DNA from: Methanosarcina sp. Ant1
GTDB taxonomy: Archaea > Halobacteriota > Methanosarcinia > Methanosarcinales > Methanosarcinaceae
Length of the DNA: 54,414 nucleotides
Direction of reading: 5' to 3'
Assembly: GCA_001714685.2 (NCBI GenBank)
Contig: MDTP02000006.1
Location: 1-54,414, forward strand
Position numbers and translations under genes: made by a program. The notes below the pieces were generated by a model. The model did no database searches. It saw only the letters and a list, made by a program, of their open reading frames with translations, and had not been told where the DNA came from. Positions 2,683-12,420 of this stretch are shown here, piece after piece (position 1 is the first letter of the stretch; each line of letters starts with the position of its first letter).

Positions 2683-3002
2683 ACCCCATATTAAACATTT
2701 GAAAAATGTAGCTATATAACTCTATTTTGTGGTACTTGCTGTTTGCCAAAATATTTACCCTATCTATACCATTTACACATTGCTAGTCTCCATTTAACTA
2801 TAGACCCCGAATTTGACCGAAGCATACATTTTATAATGTATAAATGGGCTTCATGCTTCTGTTTTCCCCCATAAAATTCAAAATTCGATCCTGTGTTTTT
2901 TGATTTTTGACATTTTTCATTTTTCAGAAAGAGTCTGTGCCGGTACAATGCGTTTTTTGGAAGAATATATTATATTAATTAGTAGAATCTGTTAAATTAA
3001 GA

Positions 3003-3046
3003 TTATAAAGTGACTATAAATTGCCCACTCGAAATAGCGAAGAGCC
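3003..3046 (+). repeat. 44-bp inverted repeat, left copy
   Basis: These 44 bases match the reverse complement of 10,898-10,941 at 41 positions. The sequence begins TTATAAAGTGACT and ends CGAAATAGCGAAGAGCC. The pair brackets the type IV secretion-like operon, and the GAGCC ends point inward. The last bases are shared with a wider dispersed repeat family, so these may be copies of that family rather than borders of one element. Confidence 0.8.
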
Positions 3047-3080
3047 TTATCCCAATATACTAATGCGAGAAAAGCGGGTT

Positions 3081-5585
3081 TTATAGTGCCCCCATTTCCT
3101 TCGAAACACTTAAAACCATCTCAGGTTCTTGGAATAATGGATTTACTGCCAGTCCCTCTATGAATTCACACACTTCAGACCCTCTTTTAAGGATGTATCG
3201 GTCTCCTACTCCCCTCTCGATCAATTTTGCATCTACTGAACTGCAAACGAACCTGACGATATCATATTTTCCAAGAGCATCTTCCTTCTTTTTGACTAGC
3301 TGGTCTACAGAATTAGACCTGTCTATCTCATACTCAAAAGCTACAGTTTTGCCGTTAATTTTCGCCTCGATATCTACTTCCTTATCGTGGTTTATGTGGA
3401 TTCCTTCAAAGCCGTATTGATATAGTAAGCCGGCCAACTGTACCACACTACTGTAATGGTCTAGCGTTTGTTTGCCGAAATGAGGAAGATCAATAAGTCC
3501 ATTCTGAACCATTCCGGCAGGAAGATACGCGGCCATTGTACCTGATTCTGCTATTCTTTCTACCCTGTGTTTTTCATAGCCCTCACTGGTAAGATGTGAA
3601 AGATCGCCTGTCGTCCAATCTGAAAATATAATTTTCTGGTCTTCTACCAGCCATTGAAGTTCAGGAAAAACCAAAAAACCACTAGTTAGAGGTCTGTTTT
3701 TTCTTCTGTAATTACCCTTAATTACATCCATTTCCAGGGTTGTAGGTTCGAATCTTATAGGGATTCTCTGGCCTTTAACTATTAGAATTCCCTCTCCTTT
3801 ATCTGCGCTTATTAAGATCTCTGTTTCTTCTTCTGAGAGTTTAAAATAGTCTTTTACATCGTCTATGGCGTTCTCCAGGTTAGCCCCTAAAACGATATTA
3901 ATAAACATGTTTGTTTTGAACTCTTCTTTTACTCCGTTTTTGGCAAAATCTCCCGGTTGATGTGTAGCCATCCAGAGGGAAACTCCATGACTGCGCCCCT
4001 GGGTCAACGTCTTTAATAAGAAAAGGGAAAGTTCAGGATTCCGCAGGTAAACTGCAGCTTCATCTACTGCTATAATTGTCTCTTTTTCGTTGTCTGTGGA
4101 AAACCTGCTGCCTAACATCCCTGTAACCAAAACGTTCATGGCTTCCTGAATAAGTTCAGGAACGTTGGATAGGTCAATTATTATGAAATCTTTTGAGATA
4201 TCAATATCAGTCGGTCGATTAATATAATTTAAAGAACCTTTTTCACTGACATGATATGTCCTGTCAAAAAGTACTTCTGCTATTATTTTTTTTGTTCCGA
4301 GGTCTTTATTATTCATATCTTTTTTCCAGACTTCCCTTAAATTCCTCAGAACAGGGAAAGGATTATTCCAAGTCTCCGGCCTGTCTCTAAAGATTCCTGC
4401 CTGCTCATAGACAACGTTAAGGGTTTCATCGAGGTATGAATCCATATTACTAGAAACTTCAGAACCGAACCAGACAGAACAGAACTTAATAAAAAGATCT
4501 TTGTGCCGGTCGTATGCTTTTGCATAAGCATATTGGCTTGACCCCATGTTTTGAGAGTCAAAAAGGATTTGCAAGGGGTTTATGTTGCTCCCACTTGGCC
4601 CTATATCCACTATACAGGCACCCTCGCCGTAATAGCCCGCTACTGCCCTGTAGTCTGTGCCCAGATCGGCTTTAGGGGTCGTGTACACGATTCTTGTATT
4701 CAACAAATCGTGCATTCTCATTAGGAGAATAAGGAAAGAGAAGGTTTTTCCTGCGCCTGTAGCTCCCAGGAAAGTAAGGTGTTTTGCCGGTAATGTATCA
4801 AGATCAATAAGGATTTCAGCATTGGTTTTTAAGTCCTTGCCGAAGTACAACCCTTTTTCATCAGTCCGGCTATTCAAGTTTGTAGCTGTACAGAGAACCG
4901 CTGCGGTATCGCTCCTGACTTCTACCCACGCTTTAGAATCGGATACAGGGAAAGGAAGAGAAGCCAAAAACATTTCAAGCATTTTCCCTTTTGGGATATG
5001 CACTTCCATTAACTCAGACTTCAAAATTGAAATAATGTAACTCTCTGCAGTGAAAGTTTCTTTCTCTCCTCCCATCATTGTAATTATAAATGCACTATGG
5101 AACGACCTATGAGAGTTGAAGTAAATCTGTTCGTAGTTTGAGACTACGTCTTTCTGTTTGCACATCAAGCCTAAATCCATTGAGCCGCCAGGATTTACCT
5201 GTCTTGCATGTTCCTGATTGACATTGACGGCAAAAGATGTTTTCTGCAGGGTCTCCCTTGCTTCTTCATTCGGGATCTGTATGAGGCTGTGAGAAATCAT
5301 AATCTTGCAGCCATCGAAACTAAGCTCCTGGATTCGTTCTATTGCCTTGCTGGTCATATCCCGGGGATAGCCTTCTCCGTTCTCCTTCGGAAGCCCTACG
5401 ACGAGGCAACGAACATACGTCCTCTGATCTATAAGGAGGTTAGTATCGAACACTTCTATGCGGTTAGGGGCAATGATTTTGCAGTACGAATCCCACCAGA
5501 TTTGATTTTCTGCTGTTTCTTTCACTTTTCTTGATCTTTGTTTTGATTCTCTTCTTTTTGCCAAAAATTTTCCCCATAATGACAT
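3081..5585 (-). CDS. VirB4/TraC-type conjugation ATPase with C-terminal nuclease-like domain
   Basis: An 834-residue cytoplasmic ATPase expected to power pilus assembly or DNA/protein transfer. Walker A is GATGAGKT (274-281) and Walker B is IIAVDEA (504-510). These are followed by the Gln/Arg-rich TLTQGR (527-531) and ATHQ (540-543) motifs typical of VirB4/HerA hexameric motors. Residues 30-250 fit a VirB4 N-terminal region. Residues about 700-800 are an extra module with Asp738 and FEYE (750-753) after a helix, which resembles a PD-(D/E)XK nuclease core; that reading is inference. The start codon overlaps the previous stop (TAATG). It is the last gene of the operon. No VirD4 or relaxase is adjacent. 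Confidence 0.8.
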   Translation of the reverse strand: MSLWGKFLAKRRESKQRSRKVKETAENQIWWDSYCKIIAPNRIEVFDTNLLIDQRTYVRCLVVGLPKENGEGYPRDMTSKAIERIQELSFDGCKIMISHSLIQIPNEEARETLQKTSFAVNVNQEHARQVNPGGSMDLGLMCKQKDVVSNYEQIYFNSHRSFHSAFIITMMGGEKETFTAESYIISILKSELMEVHIPKGKMLEMFLASLPFPVSDSKAWVEVRSDTAAVLCTATNLNSRTDEKGLYFGKDLKTNAEILIDLDTLPAKHLTFLGATGAGKTFSFLILLMRMHDLLNTRIVYTTPKADLGTDYRAVAGYYGEGACIVDIGPSGSNINPLQILFDSQNMGSSQYAYAKAYDRHKDLFIKFCSVWFGSEVSSNMDSYLDETLNVVYEQAGIFRDRPETWNNPFPVLRNLREVWKKDMNNKDLGTKKIIAEVLFDRTYHVSEKGSLNYINRPTDIDISKDFIIIDLSNVPELIQEAMNVLVTGMLGSRFSTDNEKETIIAVDEAAVYLRNPELSLFLLKTLTQGRSHGVSLWMATHQPGDFAKNGVKEEFKTNMFINIVLGANLENAIDDVKDYFKLSEEETEILISADKGEGILIVKGQRIPIRFEPTTLEMDVIKGNYRRKNRPLTSGFLVFPELQWLVEDQKIIFSDWTTGDLSHLTSEGYEKHRVERIAESGTMAAYLPAGMVQNGLIDLPHFGKQTLDHYSSVVQLAGLLYQYGFEGIHINHDKEVDIEAKINGKTVAFEYEIDRSNSVDQLVKKKEDALGKYDIVRFVCSSVDAKLIERGVGDRYILKRGSEVCEFIEGLAVNPLFQEPEMVLSVSKEMGAL

Positions 5586-6433
5586 TATACCACCATCTCT
5601 GAAAACATCGTTCTATAAGCTGTTGCAATCTCATTAGGATCTTCATAGATTCGAGGCTGTAATTTTGCCCCTCGCATGTTTTTCAAGAGCCCTGGCATTA
5701 CTGCCCCGTACTGGATCCTTGCAGCTTCTAAGTTAGGCTGTTTCCCTAAACTCTGAAAAGCGTAATACTTCCAGGAAATGACTGGTGTCCCATCCTCTGC
5801 AACTTTAGTATAAAGTCCTGCCAGATGTTGATCGGTTGCTCTTTTTCCATTGGAATTGTTGGATACTTCGAGAAGATAAGACTGAATAGGTTTTCTAGGC
5901 TGTAGTCTACTGCATGATATCGTTTTGAAGTGAGTATTAGCAGGAATCCCGTTTACAACTTTCTCAATCTTCTTTTCATGAGCTGCTCTTTCTTCGTCTG
6001 AGATTCTCATAGGATTTGTCTCCATCAGTATCCCCCATTTGTTATCTTTGAATTCAATAATACCTCCTGCGTGAATCGCTACGATGGGCACGATTTGCTC
6101 AAGAAACTGAACAGGAATTTCAAATTTGTTGATTACATGTTTTCCTCGCATGTCGGCCCACTTAAAACCGTAAATCGTAAACTGTTTTTCCACTTTTTCA
6201 GAGGTAGAGAAGTATTTCAGCCAGATGTAAAGCCACATGACCAGGATTCCCACTAAAGCCGTCTGTATTTTATCATTCTGAATGTTTCCGATTTTGGAAA
6301 TGACGAATAAAGAAACCCCTACAAATCCCATCAAAACCCATGTAAAAGGACTTGTAAAATCAAGATATTCATCATCTTGTATTTTTGTAATCGTCTTCGG
6401 GGGCTTTGGAGGACTGTACGGTGTATCGCTCAT
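5585..6433 (-). CDS. Membrane protein resembling VirB3 fused to a VirB4 N-terminal-like domain
   Basis: A 282-residue protein with a Pro-rich cytoplasmic N-terminus and two close transmembrane helices (about 29-47 and 56-75). A soluble domain of about 190 residues follows. The two-helix hairpin is the VirB3/PrgI layout. The soluble part (GGIIEFKDNKWG, then ISDEE and a helix) looks like the N-terminal domain of VirB4-type ATPases, so VirB3 plus part of VirB4 may be encoded here apart from the motor gene downstream. Its start overlaps the stop of the preceding gene by ATGA, and its own stop overlaps the next ATG. Family assignment is inference from topology and order. Confidence 0.5.
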   Translation of the reverse strand: MSDTPYSPPKPPKTITKIQDDEYLDFTSPFTWVLMGFVGVSLFVISKIGNIQNDKIQTALVGILVMWLYIWLKYFSTSEKVEKQFTIYGFKWADMRGKHVINKFEIPVQFLEQIVPIVAIHAGGIIEFKDNKWGILMETNPMRISDEERAAHEKKIEKVVNGIPANTHFKTISCSRLQPRKPIQSYLLEVSNNSNGKRATDQHLAGLYTKVAEDGTPVISWKYYAFQSLGKQPNLEAARIQYGAVMPGLLKNMRGAKLQPRIYEDPNEIATAYRTMFSEMVV

Positions 6434-7338
6434 AATTTTGCACCTACCTTTTCCAGAATTTTACCCCCTTTCTTTATCATTTCGAAGTTTCCGAAAAGGA
6501 AATACCAACAAATTAGAGCTACAAAAAGAGTCAAGCAGATGTATCCAAGAGGCTGTGCTATCATCGGCATGTTTTTCAATCCGAGAATTCCAGCACTTGT
6601 GGCAAATATGGCCCCCGGTTGCAATGCCAGAATTCTTATGATCTTCTCTGTTGTTTGCTGTGCAAATTCCCGCGTTGGTTCTGGAACCCAAAGAACGGCC
6701 AGAACAGTGCAAACAATGGCAACGGCTATTATTATATAATATCTTATGATAAAAAATATCATAACGCAAAGATCACAAAAAGCCATTCCTATATAAGTTA
6801 CAAAGTTATCGGGACTCGGAGCAATGGAACCCATCACAGAAAACATTGCATATTGGCTGAGAGCTTCCGTTACTTTCAAAGCTCCCATAAAAATAAAGTT
6901 AGCTCCGAGTCCGATAAAACACATCGTAATCCCACCGATGAATTTTGAAGTGGACAGGTCTTTTTTCCCAAAAACGCTCTCTGTTACTTTCATCCTTGCC
7001 AGGTTTCTGTTCATGAATTCTCCCAGGATGAAAAGGACTACAAAAAAGATTGCTAAATTATAATAATTTGTATAGAGTGCTTTAACCTCTGGAATGCTGT
7101 AAGGATCCGGAATGTGAGTAATAACCGTGAATAGTGCCCCCCTGGCAGTCCCGAACCTTTCGGTTACTGCGCTGTTATTATCGTAAGCAGCATACATGTT
7201 ATCGGCTACTGCAATGAAAGCTTTCTCAAATCCCTTCGCAACCATGTCCGCGCCTGCATCCTGCGCACTATAATCACTCGCTAAAGCTGTACTGCAAAGC
7301 AGAAGAAGTCCTGCTATAACCCAAACAACTTTTACCAT
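6430..7338 (-). CDS. Polytopic membrane protein, VirB6/TrbL-like channel candidate
   Basis: 302 residues from the ATG at 7,338; a longer frame exists, but this start gives a clean signal peptide (MVKVVWVIAGLLLLCSTALA) and has GAGTGAT upstream. About six further hydrophobic segments follow a periplasm-like N-terminal region. The stretch RYYIIIAVAIVCTVLAVLWV followed by a Trp/Pro/Thr turn resembles the central Arg-led helix of VirB6/TrbL proteins, the inner-membrane pore of conjugation machines. The start overlaps the end of the beta-helix gene by 7 bases, so translation is probably coupled. Confidence 0.5.
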   Translation of the reverse strand: MVKVVWVIAGLLLLCSTALASDYSAQDAGADMVAKGFEKAFIAVADNMYAAYDNNSAVTERFGTARGALFTVITHIPDPYSIPEVKALYTNYYNLAIFFVVLFILGEFMNRNLARMKVTESVFGKKDLSTSKFIGGITMCFIGLGANFIFMGALKVTEALSQYAMFSVMGSIAPSPDNFVTYIGMAFCDLCVMIFFIIRYYIIIAVAIVCTVLAVLWVPEPTREFAQQTTEKIIRILALQPGAIFATSAGILGLKNMPMIAQPLGYICLTLFVALICWYFLFGNFEMIKKGGKILEKVGAKL

Positions 7339-9500
7339 TTTATCACTCTTTTTCCATTCCTGTATATTGAAATTCCAAAAACCGTAAGAGTCCCGACGAA
7401 AGCCCATAGTCCAGGATTTAGAATTGCTCCGCTTTCGTCAGGGATTTCAACATAAGTATAATTTGTCACTTCGATAGATTCATAGGGTGTTGCCACTTTT
7501 ATGTTCAGTTGTTCAGGCTGCAACTTCCCTTTTATATAGAGTTTATTGCCTGATCCAGAAAGCTGATTCCCTGAGAACTTCCATGTATTAACTTTAGAAA
7601 AGTTGGTGTACTCTACACCATTTGGCTTTGATGTTTTCCAACCTATCAATTTAAAATGAGTTGCTGTAGATCCATTATACTGGAAATTTTCTTCTACAAT
7701 TCCGGGGATATTGGAGAGATCGACTATTGTATGCGGATTATAAGAATTATTGTAATAAGTAACGTAAGCGTAAGGCTCTTTTATCTTTGGAAACTGCGCA
7801 GGAACCGGAGAAGTAATAGAAAATTTTTCAGTTTCACTTTTGGTACTAATCGAAGGAACTGAAATACTCATCCCTTTTACATGGATAGTTGAGGTTTTTT
7901 TGACATAATATGAAGTTTTAACGGTCAAGATAGTAGTTAAACTGTTATTGTTTTCCTCATACGATAAGTTGGAAGTTTGTCCTGCTCTGAGTAGTGCTGT
8001 GTTTCGTGTTTCATAATGAACTATTGCGTTATCCTGTGAGCTCCCATTAATGTATTCAATGCCATCTATTTCTGAAATACCTTTAAAATCTTCAATTGAG
8101 AGAGTTGCTTCAGTATATTTCCCCTTTTTCTGCCAGTTTTCCGAAGGGATAATGACTTTTTTCTGTTCGATTAAAGCTGTAGTAGAAAACTCTTGATTGA
8201 GGATTCCAAAAATATCTTTTATTTCGTGAGTGTCTGTATCCGTTGTATTCCTGGTTGTTGTTGCTGCAATGCTTCCCAATTCCATCGGAGGCACAAAGGC
8301 ACATGTCCAGGTCGTCCCGGTCCACGTCCAACCGCTTGAAGTTGCATGAGTTTTAGGGTTCTGTAAATCATCTCCTGAAGAGGTGCATTGATACAGGTTT
8401 CCGTTTTGATTATTATAAAAACAATTATTTGTAATTGAAAGGGCAGCTCCTGCTAAATCGGCTATTCCTTTTCCGGTAGCAGTCTGAGAGATACCTGTAT
8501 GAGAAACCGTATCAGTAATAACATTGTTACTAATAATCGTTCCTTGACCTTCTCCTTGATTCCTGAAAGCATCATTTTTAGTACCCTCGAAAACATTATT
8601 ATAAACCTGCGTTCCCTTCATTCCATCATTTACAATTCCACCCGTATATGGAATATTATAAGACTGTCCAACTTGATGGAATAAATTATGATGAACTAAT
8701 ACACCTTGTGTGTTTTGGCCTCCATTTTCATAACTTATGAGCCATGTTCCTGCTCCCCATGTTTGAGAAATTATATTGTTGCAGATTTCAACATCCTGCA
8801 AGGTCCCTTTTGAATCTTCGATTTGTAGTCCTGCGTTTCCTCCGAGGCTGTCAAGCTGTGCGTTTATGACGTTACTATAAAAGCGTACATGAGCAGAGTT
8901 CCAAAGTCTCAAAGCTGAATTTGTCCTGGTTGTAATCCTATTATTGTAAGCTTCAATATTTTGTGAATCGATCCCATAAAAAACATCATGTCCTAGCCGG
9001 TAAGCAGTATTATTATAAAATTTAATATTTGTACTTGTTTTTGTTCGGACCCCGTCTCCTAGAGAGTCATGCATCAGGCAGTTATTGACATCTACAGAAT
9101 CACAATCAATCACATGGATAAAATTATAGTACCCCTGGCCCCACCTTTTACCTTCTCCCTTTCCGTCATGCCCGCTCCATGTCGGGGTATTGTCTTGATT
9201 TTTGTCATTTCCATTAATTTCTATATTTCTTATAGTAGCATTCTGAACACCAATTCCTGAGATTAACGGTTTCCATTGAGGCCATCCGGCATTATCAGGA
9301 ATTGTAATTATAGTTCCAGGCTCACCTTCTAAAACTGAATTGTCCTGAAGGATGATAGAGTCAGTGATTACATAGGTTCGAGCCGAAAGGGTGGCATTAC
9401 CACTTTCTCTGAGCTGTTCATTAATTTGGACTTCTGCGCCTGCGCTAGCTATCGATGGGAGTAATAAAAAAGAAAGGAAGATAGCGAGAAGGCGACTTAT
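7332..9500 (-). CDS. Membrane-anchored right-handed beta-helix surface protein
   Basis: 722 residues if translation starts at an ATA codon (9,498-9,500), six bases after a perfect GGAGGA. The reading frame is open from there. It begins with a signal peptide (RLLAIFLSFLLLPSIASAGA) and continues through TYVITDSIILQDNSVLEGEP, a typical first beta-helix rung. No ATG, GTG or TTG occurs in frame before the GTG at 9,113, which would delete about 129 residues and the signal. Asn-rich rungs (NNVI, NNCF, YNNR) fill residues up to about 400. Beta-rich domains follow, then one C-terminal transmembrane helix (GLWAFVGTLTVFGISIY) and a basic tail. It is probably an adhesin or polysaccharide-binding/lyase-like component of the surface machine; activity is unknown. 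Confidence 0.7.
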   Translation of the reverse strand: MSRLLAIFLSFLLLPSIASAGAEVQINEQLRESGNATLSARTYVITDSIILQDNSVLEGEPGTIITIPDNAGWPQWKPLISGIGVQNATIRNIEINGNDKNQDNTPTWSGHDGKGEGKRWGQGYYNFIHVIDCDSVDVNNCLMHDSLGDGVRTKTSTNIKFYNNTAYRLGHDVFYGIDSQNIEAYNNRITTRTNSALRLWNSAHVRFYSNVINAQLDSLGGNAGLQIEDSKGTLQDVEICNNIISQTWGAGTWLISYENGGQNTQGVLVHHNLFHQVGQSYNIPYTGGIVNDGMKGTQVYNNVFEGTKNDAFRNQGEGQGTIISNNVITDTVSHTGISQTATGKGIADLAGAALSITNNCFYNNQNGNLYQCTSSGDDLQNPKTHATSSGWTWTGTTWTCAFVPPMELGSIAATTTRNTTDTDTHEIKDIFGILNQEFSTTALIEQKKVIIPSENWQKKGKYTEATLSIEDFKGISEIDGIEYINGSSQDNAIVHYETRNTALLRAGQTSNLSYEENNNSLTTILTVKTSYYVKKTSTIHVKGMSISVPSISTKSETEKFSITSPVPAQFPKIKEPYAYVTYYNNSYNPHTIVDLSNIPGIVEENFQYNGSTATHFKLIGWKTSKPNGVEYTNFSKVNTWKFSGNQLSGSGNKLYIKGKLQPEQLNIKVATPYESIEVTNYTYVEIPDESGAILNPGLWAFVGTLTVFGISIYRNGKRVIKW

Positions 9501-9502
9501 AT

Positions 9503-9742
9503 CTAGTCCTCCATTTTCACGCCTATTAAATCTGCAATCCCTAAAGACCCGCCTTCACATTCATGAACATACATTTGAGGAATGGCGATATTTACAAATC
9601 TAAGATATCCAACACCGTTTATATTTCTCTCAATATCGAGAGCTAACGAGGGGTTACTTTTGTTATAATATAAAATAGTTAAGTTATGGATAATTTGAGA
9701 GCATCTTCGCCATTTGTATTCAGGCGATGCTTTCATTTTCAC
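9503..9742 (-). CDS. Small hypothetical protein in the secretion-like operon
   Basis: 79 residues, mostly soluble, with two cysteines (CSQ near residue 14 and HECEGG near residue 62). No family was recognised. It is supported as a gene by its position: its ATG overlaps the stop of the pilin-like gene by ATGA, and its 3' end carries the GGAGGA that serves the next gene. It lies between the pilin candidate and the beta-helix protein, so a role in assembly or chaperoning is possible but unproven. Confidence 0.6.
   Translation of the reverse strand: MKMKASPEYKWRRCSQIIHNLTILYYNKSNPSLALDIERNINGVGYLRFVNIAIPQMYVHECEGGSLGIADLIGVKMED
9507..9512 (-). promoter_or_regulatory. Ribosome binding site GGAGGA deciding an ATA start
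   Basis: The minus strand reads GGAGGA, then six bases including the TAG stop of the 79-residue gene, then ATA and the signal-peptide codons of the beta-helix protein. The spacing is ideal for initiation at ATA. No ATG, GTG or TTG is in frame nearby. Confidence 0.6.
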
Positions 9743-10086
9743 ACCATTCCATTCAACTTTGGGACAACGTACTCAAAAAGAAACGCTAGGCCGAGAATTA
9801 CGATAATACATTCTACAAACCAACCTTTCATATTTTCCCGAGTATTCAAAACATCATTAATTCTCTCTCTCATCCGGGCGATATTTCCAGACATCCAGAG
9901 GAACAGAATCGAGATTATAGCAACAAAAATAGCTCCCCATTTTGCAAAAGATATCATATCACTTGCTATATCTGAAGCCGGACCCAGGTTCCTTACCACG
10001 GAATAATTTTCCGCTCCTAAAGCTGTACTGGCAGTAAGCAGAATCCATCCTACCTCCAAAACGAACTTTCTTATCTTATTCATCAT
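9739..10086 (-). CDS. VirB2/TrbC-like pilin candidate
   Basis: 115 residues. A signal peptide (about 1-24, ending STALGA) is followed by a short extracytoplasmic stretch and a hydrophobic helix (WGAIFVAIISILFLWMSG). A positively charged loop (RMRERINDVLNTRENMK) and a second helix (FVECIIVILGLAFLFEYVV) complete it. Signal plus two helices around a basic loop is the layout of VirB2 and TrbC pilins and of archaeal DNA-import pilins. It is the first gene of the operon, as pilins often are. The homology claim is topological only. Confidence 0.55.
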   Translation of the reverse strand: MMNKIRKFVLEVGWILLTASTALGAENYSVVRNLGPASDIASDMISFAKWGAIFVAIISILFLWMSGNIARMRERINDVLNTRENMKGWFVECIIVILGLAFLFEYVVPKLNGMV

Positions 10087-10558
10087 ATTTTTTTAAACAT
10101 CTTCATATTTATTATATCTTTCTATATTTGCTAATATATTAATATACTAATACTAATTTAGCAATATAATAAATAGATACTACTAAAAACTCATTATATT
10201 ACTATATAGCCTTAAATATCTAGTAGTAAAATAAGTTCATCTATTATTGGAACCAAAATATTATAGAATTTAGAATAAAACATATTTAACTGCAGTACTA
10301 AAGTTATAATATCAAGAAAATATACTAAAAACGAAATAAAATTTTACAAAGGAATAATTATAAGATTTAAAGAATTGATCAGCAAATGGAAAGCGTTCGA
10401 TCAGTTAGATCCATGATAGGAAATATATTCAAATTTTTTGCCATAAAGCACTGTTTTTTAGCTTTATTTTAATATTCTTGACTTTAAATTATCGGATTGA
10501 CAAAAGAAATAAACTAAAAACCTTTTTTGAATAAAGAAATCAAATTGCTTTCGGCCAT

Positions 10559-10696
10559 CCTACCCCAAACAGGCTGCCCGACAATTCAATTTAAGGGTAA
10601 AAAGATTGCAAAAAAGCATTTAAGACCTTTGAATTGAAAAAAAAGGAATTCTTTTATTACTGATAGTAATTGTCGGACAACCTCTTAAGGTAGGGG
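10559..10696. repeat. About 138-bp palindromic element (MITE-like)
   Basis: The left end (CCTACCCC ... CCCGACAATT) matches the reverse complement of the right end (AATTGTCGGACAACC ... GGTAGG) over about 28 imperfect bases. A second inner inverted pair (TTCAATTTAAGG / CCTTTGAATTGAA) makes most of the element foldable. It has no coding capacity. It may be a non-autonomous insertion element or a relic of insertion-sequence ends. Confidence 0.5.
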
Positions 10697-10897
10697 TATT
10701 CGTAACCCTCCGCACTTCCAAAGTAATAAAGAGGAGGCTATATCGTCAGCAGGATGATATATAGAATAGAATCGATTTTTTTAATTATTCAGCCTAGATT
10801 AAACAGCCTCAACAGCCATCTTTCTTAAGATACAATGGGCAAATTTCTCCGAATTAATCTTCGTCAATTGTTGGCGATTGGTTGCGTTTTTCTTTTT

Positions 10898-11075
10898 GGC
10901 TCTTCGCTATTTCGAGTAGGTAATTTAGAGTCACTTTATAACTGCGATCCGACATCTATAATGTTTAAAAATATTTAGTGTGGAGAAATCACATTCAGAA
11001 TCGATAATTTCTCTGTGGCGTGGTCACTTTTCAACTAGAGAATTATTTTCAACCCACGCAAAAAAGCGAAAAGTC
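10898..11075. repeat. Dispersed repeat containing the right 44-bp inverted copy and copy B
   Basis: Positions 10,898-10,941 are the inverted partner of 3,003-3,046. Positions 11,005-11,070 match copy A at 230-300. Read together, the segment starts GGCTCTTCGCTATTT and ends AAAAAAGCGAAAAGTC, so it has imperfect terminal inverted repeats like the shorter elements at 12,077 and 22,882. Confidence 0.6.
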
Positions 11076-11269
11076 TTCTTTTTTATTGGTTAGTTATCAC
11101 ACTTATCTGGATATCTAAATCAATATCAATCAACGGATTTTGGGTAGGCTGAATAGTTATCGATTTTATTAGGATCTGTTCCATTAGATATTTAGAATCC
11201 GATTAAGGGCCACCAGCGGGGAGCCTTATTCGGGCAAGGGGAGCTGTTGGGTCACCTTCAGGGAAGAGA

Positions 11270-11860: not shown

Positions 11861-12076
11861 ATAGTAATACATAGATATATGTTCATTCTTTTTCATTTAC
11901 TGGATATGGTACTTTTGTTCTCTCTTCTTGTAATCATCACTCTAAATAATTCATTAAATAAGATTCCACTACTTTTTACAAGATTCATTATTTTCAATAA
12001 TATTTGATAATAAAAATTTATTTTATAAAAATCGATTAAACAATTTAAAAATAAAAATAAGTAACATTAAGATTAC

Positions 12077-12166
12077 GGCTCTTCGCTATTCCTTATGGAT
12101 AAGATGCTTTTTCAATTTACCCGCATTGGTTTTTGTGATGATATCCACACGAAACAGCGGAGAGCC
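12077..12166. repeat. 90-bp palindromic element, copy E
   Basis: It begins GGCTCTTCGCTATTCC and ends GAAACAGCGGAGAGCC, with an inner pair TGGATA / TATCCA, so nearly the whole element can fold into one hairpin. It is closely related to 22,882-22,972 over its full length. The ends are shared with the repeats at 3,046, 10,898 and 38,289. Positions 12,167-12,420 hold nothing else recognisable. Confidence 0.75.
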
Positions 12167-12420
12167 TTAATTACTCTGACCAAAAGAGACTTCAAATATT
12201 TATTATTGAAAAAAACTGAAAAGCAGTGAAAAATAAGATAAATTTGCCTTAATCTCACATTTCGATTTTTGGATTGAAACGGTAGAAAAAAAGTGAGTTT
12301 TTAAATATTTGTAAAAATAATCGCCACCCAAAAGGGCAAGAATTACCAAATCAACGAAATTCAATGAAAAAATTAAAGGGGGATCGGAATGTAAATTATA
12401 TCACAAAAGGGGTGGATAAG

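Follow-up and report, generated by a model that had tools for sequence, protein, structure and literature searches.

A minimal type IV secretion-type module with a nuclease-like VirB4 end in Methanosarcina sp. Ant1 and in mobile elements of Methanosarcinales

Type IV secretion systems (T4SSs) are known from plasmids, integrative and conjugative elements (ICEs) and chromosomes. The system described here is an operon of Methanosarcina sp. Ant1 situated in a contig of 54,414 bases (the whole contig C6, hereafter the window), in which six overlapping or near-contiguous open reading frames (ORFs) run on the minus strand from 10086 to 3081. Five genes are kept in a fixed order: pilin-like, anchored surface protein, VirB6-like, VirB3-like and VirB4. 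With a probability of roughly 0.58, this module is a minimal T4SS of conjugation type belonging to a distinct family that is carried by mobile elements of Methanosarcinales, head-tailed viruses included, and that would serve contact-dependent DNA transfer.

Several described systems resemble it in part. The ICE apparatus of mycoplasmas likewise belongs to wall-less cells, has VirB4 together with parts resembling VirB6 and VirB3, and lacks VirB8 (PMC12857230); it possesses VirD4, which is absent from the window system, and it differs from the latter's set of an anchored surface protein, a candidate pilin and, on VirB4, a nuclease-like domain. The Ced and Ted systems of Thermoproteota share with the module VirB2-, VirB6- and VirB4-like parts and the absence of a relaxase, and some copies of the module are chromosomal as well. 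What sets the module apart from Ced and Ted is its VirB3-like protein, its surface protein, the nuclease-like domain and its frequent residence on mobile elements. The gene order VirB6-VirB3-VirB4 is that of the Gram-positive T4SSs of the MPF_FA/FATA types (PrgH-PrgI-PrgJ; PMC12857230), and the VirB4 domain of the module matches Thermoanaerobacter 4ag5; unlike in these systems, VirD4, a relaxase, VirB1 and VirB8 are not recognised in the module. Thaumarchaeal ICEs and Sulfolobus conjugative plasmids also combine an archaeal VirB4 with the lack of a relaxase, the ICEs having VirB6 and VirB3 in addition (PMC6563490), but they possess VirD4, and the ICE genes are not syntenic whereas the present order is fixed.

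An original prediction, made from the sequence of this stretch, had described a reduced T4SS-like machine, and this description is supported for VirB4 and the VirB6-like channel and, at the level of candidates, for the VirB2-like pilin and the VirB3-like protein. Three points are new with respect to it: VirB4 has a nuclease-like end, the module occurs in viral and plasmid-like settings, and the operon is an insertion absent from relatives.

Components of the operon

The last gene of the operon (3081–5585, minus strand, as are all genes of the operon) encodes an ATPase of 834 residues with intact Walker A and B motifs. Judged by its sequence it is certainly a VirB4: it matches the Thermoanaerobacter VirB4 structure 4ag5 (phmmer, 7.4e-19) and, at 1e-31, NF045975 of NCBIfam (mycoplasma ICE VirB4), the closest curated VirB4 model. 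The C-terminal residues 640–834 (3081–3668) were modelled by AF2 at pLDDT 88 and pTM 0.84. The core of this model has the succession helix-strand-strand-strand-helix-strand, as for the PD-(D/E)XK superfamily, and Foldseek matches it to the CRISPR ancillary nuclease Can2 (probability 0.98–0.99, E 0.006), with Holliday junction resolvases (Hjc) and HindIII among the further matches. His710, Asp738 and Glu751 are invariant in all 17 aligned VirB4 copies, and again in a second, partly different set of 17; Glu753 and Lys766 are present in 16 of the first 17. No Pfam family covers the region, and its profile has no meaningful match among PDB sequences. The model suggests that the VirB4 C-terminus folds as a PD-(D/E)XK nuclease-like domain with a putative nuclease activity.

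The polytopic membrane protein of 302 residues (6430–7338), most likely starting at M24 of the longest ORF, is VirB6-like as far as its predicted fold supports this. When an AF2 model built from 16 sequences (pLDDT 70) was compared with 350,542 PDB chains, the VirB6 of R388 came first (7o3v chain J; Foldseek probability 1.00, E 0.067), and more chains of the R388 VirB6 complex stand at ranks 12, 13 and 37, which makes four within the first 37. In the viral library the top fold match is gp153 of Bacillus phage G (E 6.2e-5), itself a TrbL_4 protein in Pfam (1.8e-11). The VirB6-like sequence profiles gave no match at the sequence level, including against PDB sequences.

The gene of a VirB3-like protein of 282 residues (5585–6433) follows that of VirB6 and directly precedes that of VirB4, an arrangement shared with Gram-positive systems. 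Its N-terminal membrane helices appear by eye as two hydrophobic stretches, only one of which passes a simple hydropathy cut, and its soluble part comprises ~190 residues. In Methanoperedens-type loci the protein is fused to VirB4. Neither sequence nor profile searches, PDB sequences included, gave a family match, and hhalign of the VirB3-like protein against VirB4 found nothing. In one viral operon (L069, 9607–10014) an ORF of 135 residues, YopX-like by eye, stands between VirB3 and VirB4.

The first gene (9739–10086) encodes a protein of 115 residues with a signal peptide and two helices, a candidate VirB2. Pfam T4SS_pilin (PF18895) is matched by seven of ten relatives (best 2.9e-5) and not by the window protein itself. 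The pilin-like profile aligns with gp150 of phage G at E 7e-4 and a probability of 26% (hhalign) and has no meaningful match among PDB sequences. Pilins held out of model building were recovered in the expected slot by the hidden Markov model (HMM) in L018, L048, L049, L055, L056, L058, L068 and L075. The next ORF (79 residues, 9503–9742) has no family match, and in three related loci its slot is filled by a different protein of ~66–74 residues, a winged helix by eye; the 79-residue ORF may not be a gene.

The secreted surface protein of 722 residues (7332–9500) combines an N-terminal beta-helix (Pfam Disaggr_assoc 4.6e-22, Beta_helix 1e-9) with a C-terminal anchored domain. Conserved among relatives are the C-terminal ~300 residues together with the membrane anchor (alignment A5). 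The beta-helix is an N-terminal extension found in some Methanosarcina-type copies and lacking from most relatives; on this sequence comparison, it is a lineage-specific addition outside the core. The original prediction had the beta-helix protein as the adhesin of the machine; most members of the family keep only its C-terminal anchored domain. The reading frame has no ATG, GTG or TTG before 9113, and the 722-residue version needs ATA at 9500, which a Shine-Dalgarno sequence (GGAGGA) precedes at the right distance. Either this copy uses an unusual start codon, or the ATA goes back to a mutation or to an error in sequencing.

The tight packing of six minus-strand genes was reproduced, ORFs and junctions alike. 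The start of VirB6 at M24 (7338) gives a 7-base overlap with the upstream surface-protein gene, the junction of the VirB3-like gene is an ATGA overlap and that of the VirB4 gene a TAATG overlap. An archaellum or type IV pilus is ruled out as there is no T2SSE-type ATPase in the operon.

A recurrent module and its viral and plasmid-like carriers

Complete or almost complete, the five-gene module is found in more than 20 further loci, in Methanosarcinales or in elements of theirs. HMMs of the five proteins find the same set locus after locus, and its order rarely varies: in L017, L022, L069, L072 and L078 the surface gene precedes the pilin. The original prediction had staked its proposal on co-occurrence of the genes in other genomes; such co-occurrence was found for the five-gene core of the six-gene set, and the proposal is not refuted by it. 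The gene order is not due to chance, since it recurs in independent loci and the dN/dS values are low (about 0.07–0.15 by NG86 between the window copy and that of a second Methanosarcina genome, G024). By profile search the VirB4 family occurs in 17 of the 186 genomes of the order, and the same 17 are the only ones among the 238 of the class; a phylum-wide sample of 393 genomes yielded one extra partial copy outside the class. Among its carriers are Methanosarcina sp. Chersky and Candidatus Methanoperedens nitroreducens.

Contig scans depended on the query. The window VirB4 alone gave no matches in genome contigs and viral contigs, the alignment of fused-type VirB4s (A7) found no viral relatives, and the subgroup alignment A8 did find relatives. 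Since tblastn of VirB4 against annotated phages and plasmids returned distant VirB4s only, the family is not represented in these collections. A scan of IMG/VR with A8 revealed nine contigs of 13–73 kb, and the VirB4 of L022 as a query added a tenth.

Seven of these ten uncultivated virus genomes contain the large terminase gene terL, and an eighth TerL was identified in L078 by means of a second PHROG; L070 and L075 have no TerL match and are regarded as putative viruses. In L066, L068 and L074 the operon occupies the position between terL and the portal gene (phrog_18178 in L074, 2.7e-40), L068 beginning after the TerL position. In L069 and in a 60 kb contig of a Methanosarcina metagenome-assembled genome (MAG; G010:C111, L022–L025) it stands between the MuF minor head protein gene and genes of a putative protease, decoration protein and capsid, the capsid assignment being weak (phrog_264, E 0.002). 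L066 and L068 are binned as Candidatus Omnitrophota (MAG RS_8_54) yet carry archaeal-type relatives, and they are probably misbinned viral contigs. Plasmid-like or integrated elements carry the module too, since loci adjoin Orc1/Cdc6 (L019) or PrimPol (L018, L048, L049, L051, L053). VirB4 as the packaging ATPase of the viruses is ruled out, most carriers having TerL.

The open-access literature searched gave no account of head-tailed viruses of archaea with a T4SS module, and neither the word phage nor the word virus occurs in a review that recently surveyed the diversity of T4SSs (PMC12857230). A fixed module of five T4SS genes in such viruses, its motor bearing a nuclease-like domain and relaxase and VirD4 being absent, would blur the distinction between virus and conjugative plasmid. 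An independent T4SS-like set in a tailed virus is gp150–gp156 of phage G (L128, NC_023719.1, 1972–8337), where gp150 matches T4SS_pilin (3.7e-6) and gp155, noted as VirB-like in its record, is a VirB4-type P-loop protein (1.6e-15). It differs in belonging to a bacterial jumbo phage and in having an additional ATPase, gp156, a second HerA/TraG-like protein (phrog_5156) whose PHROG membership indicates counterparts in other phages; a nuclease-fused VirB4 is not recognised in it. The VirB6 and VirB3 profiles found nothing among phage G proteins with hhalign, and the components of the two sets show no clear sequence homology. T4SS-like gene sets in tailed viruses may have arisen at least twice.

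Contact-dependent DNA transfer and competing explanations

Contact-dependent DNA transfer is the function that best suits this set of parts, in which a motor bearing a nuclease-like domain is joined by a channel, a pilin and an anchor at the surface; direction and substrate are putative. In such a machine the pilin would form a pilus or surface conduit, VirB6 the membrane channel, and VirB3 would couple VirB6 to the VirB4 ring. Carrying a nuclease domain of its own, VirB4 would process DNA and pump it through VirB6 and the pilus-like conduit, and so take the place of both relaxase and coupling protein. The surface protein with its anchor, which in the window copy bears a beta-helix related to disaggregatase, might stick to the matrix of the partner cell or act on it. 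The outcome would be DNA transfer between touching cells, of use to organisms that live as aggregates.

Neither a VirD4/TraG coupling protein (PF02534, none above cut-off) nor a relaxase of the MobA/VirD2 type (PF03432, the only relaxase class searched) was found in the window genome and nine virus records, while control genomes were positive for the former and the controls for the latter worked. The original prediction had named both absences and taken them to argue against ordinary conjugation. The absences stand, but for the relaxase the argument does not: archaeal conjugative elements, including Sulfolobus conjugative plasmids and thaumarchaeal ICEs, generally have no relaxase (PMC6563490), and therefore its absence does not speak against conjugation. 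Only the absence of VirD4 is notable in this respect, and it is a trait also of T4SSs that take up DNA, release proteins or mediate adhesion (PMC12857230). The nuclease-like domain on the motor of a system free of relaxase and VirD4 offers a testable answer to how DNA is prepared in relaxase-less archaeal conjugation. Methanosarcina is genetically tractable, and the window copy is clean, isolated and chromosomal.

Several points weigh against DNA transfer by this module. VirD4, VirB8 and VirB11 are not recognised and the translocation substrate is putative. The catalytic lysine has an unusual position (Glu-Tyr-Glu, with Lys766 only in the next helix), and the VirB4 of L078 has Ala and Gln at the positions of Glu753 and Lys766; to judge from these residues, some copies could lack nuclease activity. 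The match of VirB6 to the PDB has an E-value of just 0.067 with a model of moderate confidence, and for VirB3 the arguments are its topology, its position and its fusion to VirB4, with no sequence match in its favour. Due to the ATA start, the surface protein of the window copy may be impaired.

The rival that survives best, though improbable, is an organelle for adhesion or aggregation, in which VirB4 drives a pilus and the display of the surface protein with no DNA cargo, as was proposed for the Trw system of Bartonella (PMC12857230). The absence of VirD4 agrees with it, as do the variable ectodomains of the surface proteins and the fast evolution of the exposed parts: compared with L069 the pilin is 42% and the beta-helix protein 45% identical, VirB4 70%. 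However, it is not obvious what the invariant nuclease-like domain and the VirB6-like channel would do in a system for adhesion alone.

Slightly less credible still is DNA import of the Ced or ComB type, by which a domesticated T4SS takes up DNA from kin for repair. Ced, Ted and ComB are precedents (PMC9905601, PMC11868833, PMC12857230), VirD4 is missing, and the operon stands alone in the chromosome in the window and, at least on the 3' side, in G024 (L016). Many relatives reside in viruses and other mobile elements, which would gain little from import; the presence in the order is patchy, and the CedB model scores 43.9 bits, far below its cut-off of 700 (CedD 22.9 against 600).

It is very unlikely that the module acts in superinfection or entry exclusion, where a membrane complex of VirB4 and nuclease would destroy incoming DNA. 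This role would suit the nuclease-like domain, the viral carriers and the weak resemblance of VirB4 to the anti-phage protein HerA (7.7e-10). It would also suit a small protein of ~100 residues, nearly always with a lipobox, that is encoded beside the operon, usually divergently, in 17 loci (L018, L048–L055, L058, L063, L065, L066, L069, L072, L075 and L077) and is a candidate entry-exclusion protein. The pilin, VirB6 and the anchored surface protein would be superfluous for exclusion, and there is no such lipoprotein gene beside the window operon.

If the module does transfer DNA upon contact, certain viruses of archaea may possess a second route for moving DNA between cells. Tentatively, head-tailed viruses of Methanosarcinales could use the complete minimal conjugation machine within their packaging/head gene block late in infection or in a carrier state to send DNA into neighbours, the hosts capturing the module afterwards; one and the same element would then spread both by virions and by conjugation.

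Chromosomal setting of the window copy

Compared with relatives in which phoA and psiE adjoin each other, the window contains an insertion of ~8.4 kb (2797–11251). The empty site is seen in G010, G008 and G005, where phoA and psiE are divergent neighbours with 0.2–0.3 kb between the alignable ends; in the window they are ~8.4 kb apart with the operon between them, and psiE is inverted relative to the relatives. The operon is bracketed by a 44-nt inverted repeat whose arms are 93% complementary and form part of dispersed repeats. The left arm (3003–3046, plus strand) adjoins a dispersed repeat of ~200 bp (2806–3010), and the right arm (10898–10941, plus strand) lies inside another (10898–11079); a second dispersed repeat on the right side spans 10537–10730.

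In the VirB4 tree the window copy groups with that of G024 and then with virus L069, with full support. The low dN/dS, a sign of purifying selection, indicates that the module has been kept functional. On this reading the operon of the window entered the chromosome at a site between phoA and psiE and was retained. The remainder of the contig reads as ordinary chromosomal genes; no tRNA gene or integrase is found in its 54,414 bases, and no terminase, portal or capsid gene near the operon. A provirus remnant is ruled out by the lack of viral genes. It is very improbable that the operon truly belongs to a virus or plasmid and was placed in the chromosome by a false join of the assembly at the repeats: dispersed repeats do lie at both ends of the insertion and psiE is inverted, but no other repeat copy among the matches listed exceeds about 90% identity, which is too little for k-mers to cause a misjoin, the 54 kb contain no viral gene, and the operon is single-copy in the genome.

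Short repeat families resembling miniature inverted-repeat transposable elements cluster round the insertion (the three dispersed repeats given above and 12069–12173) and are numerous both in the Ant1 genome and in those of related Methanosarcina. Directly downstream of phoA three tandem 23-nt repeats are located at 698–768.

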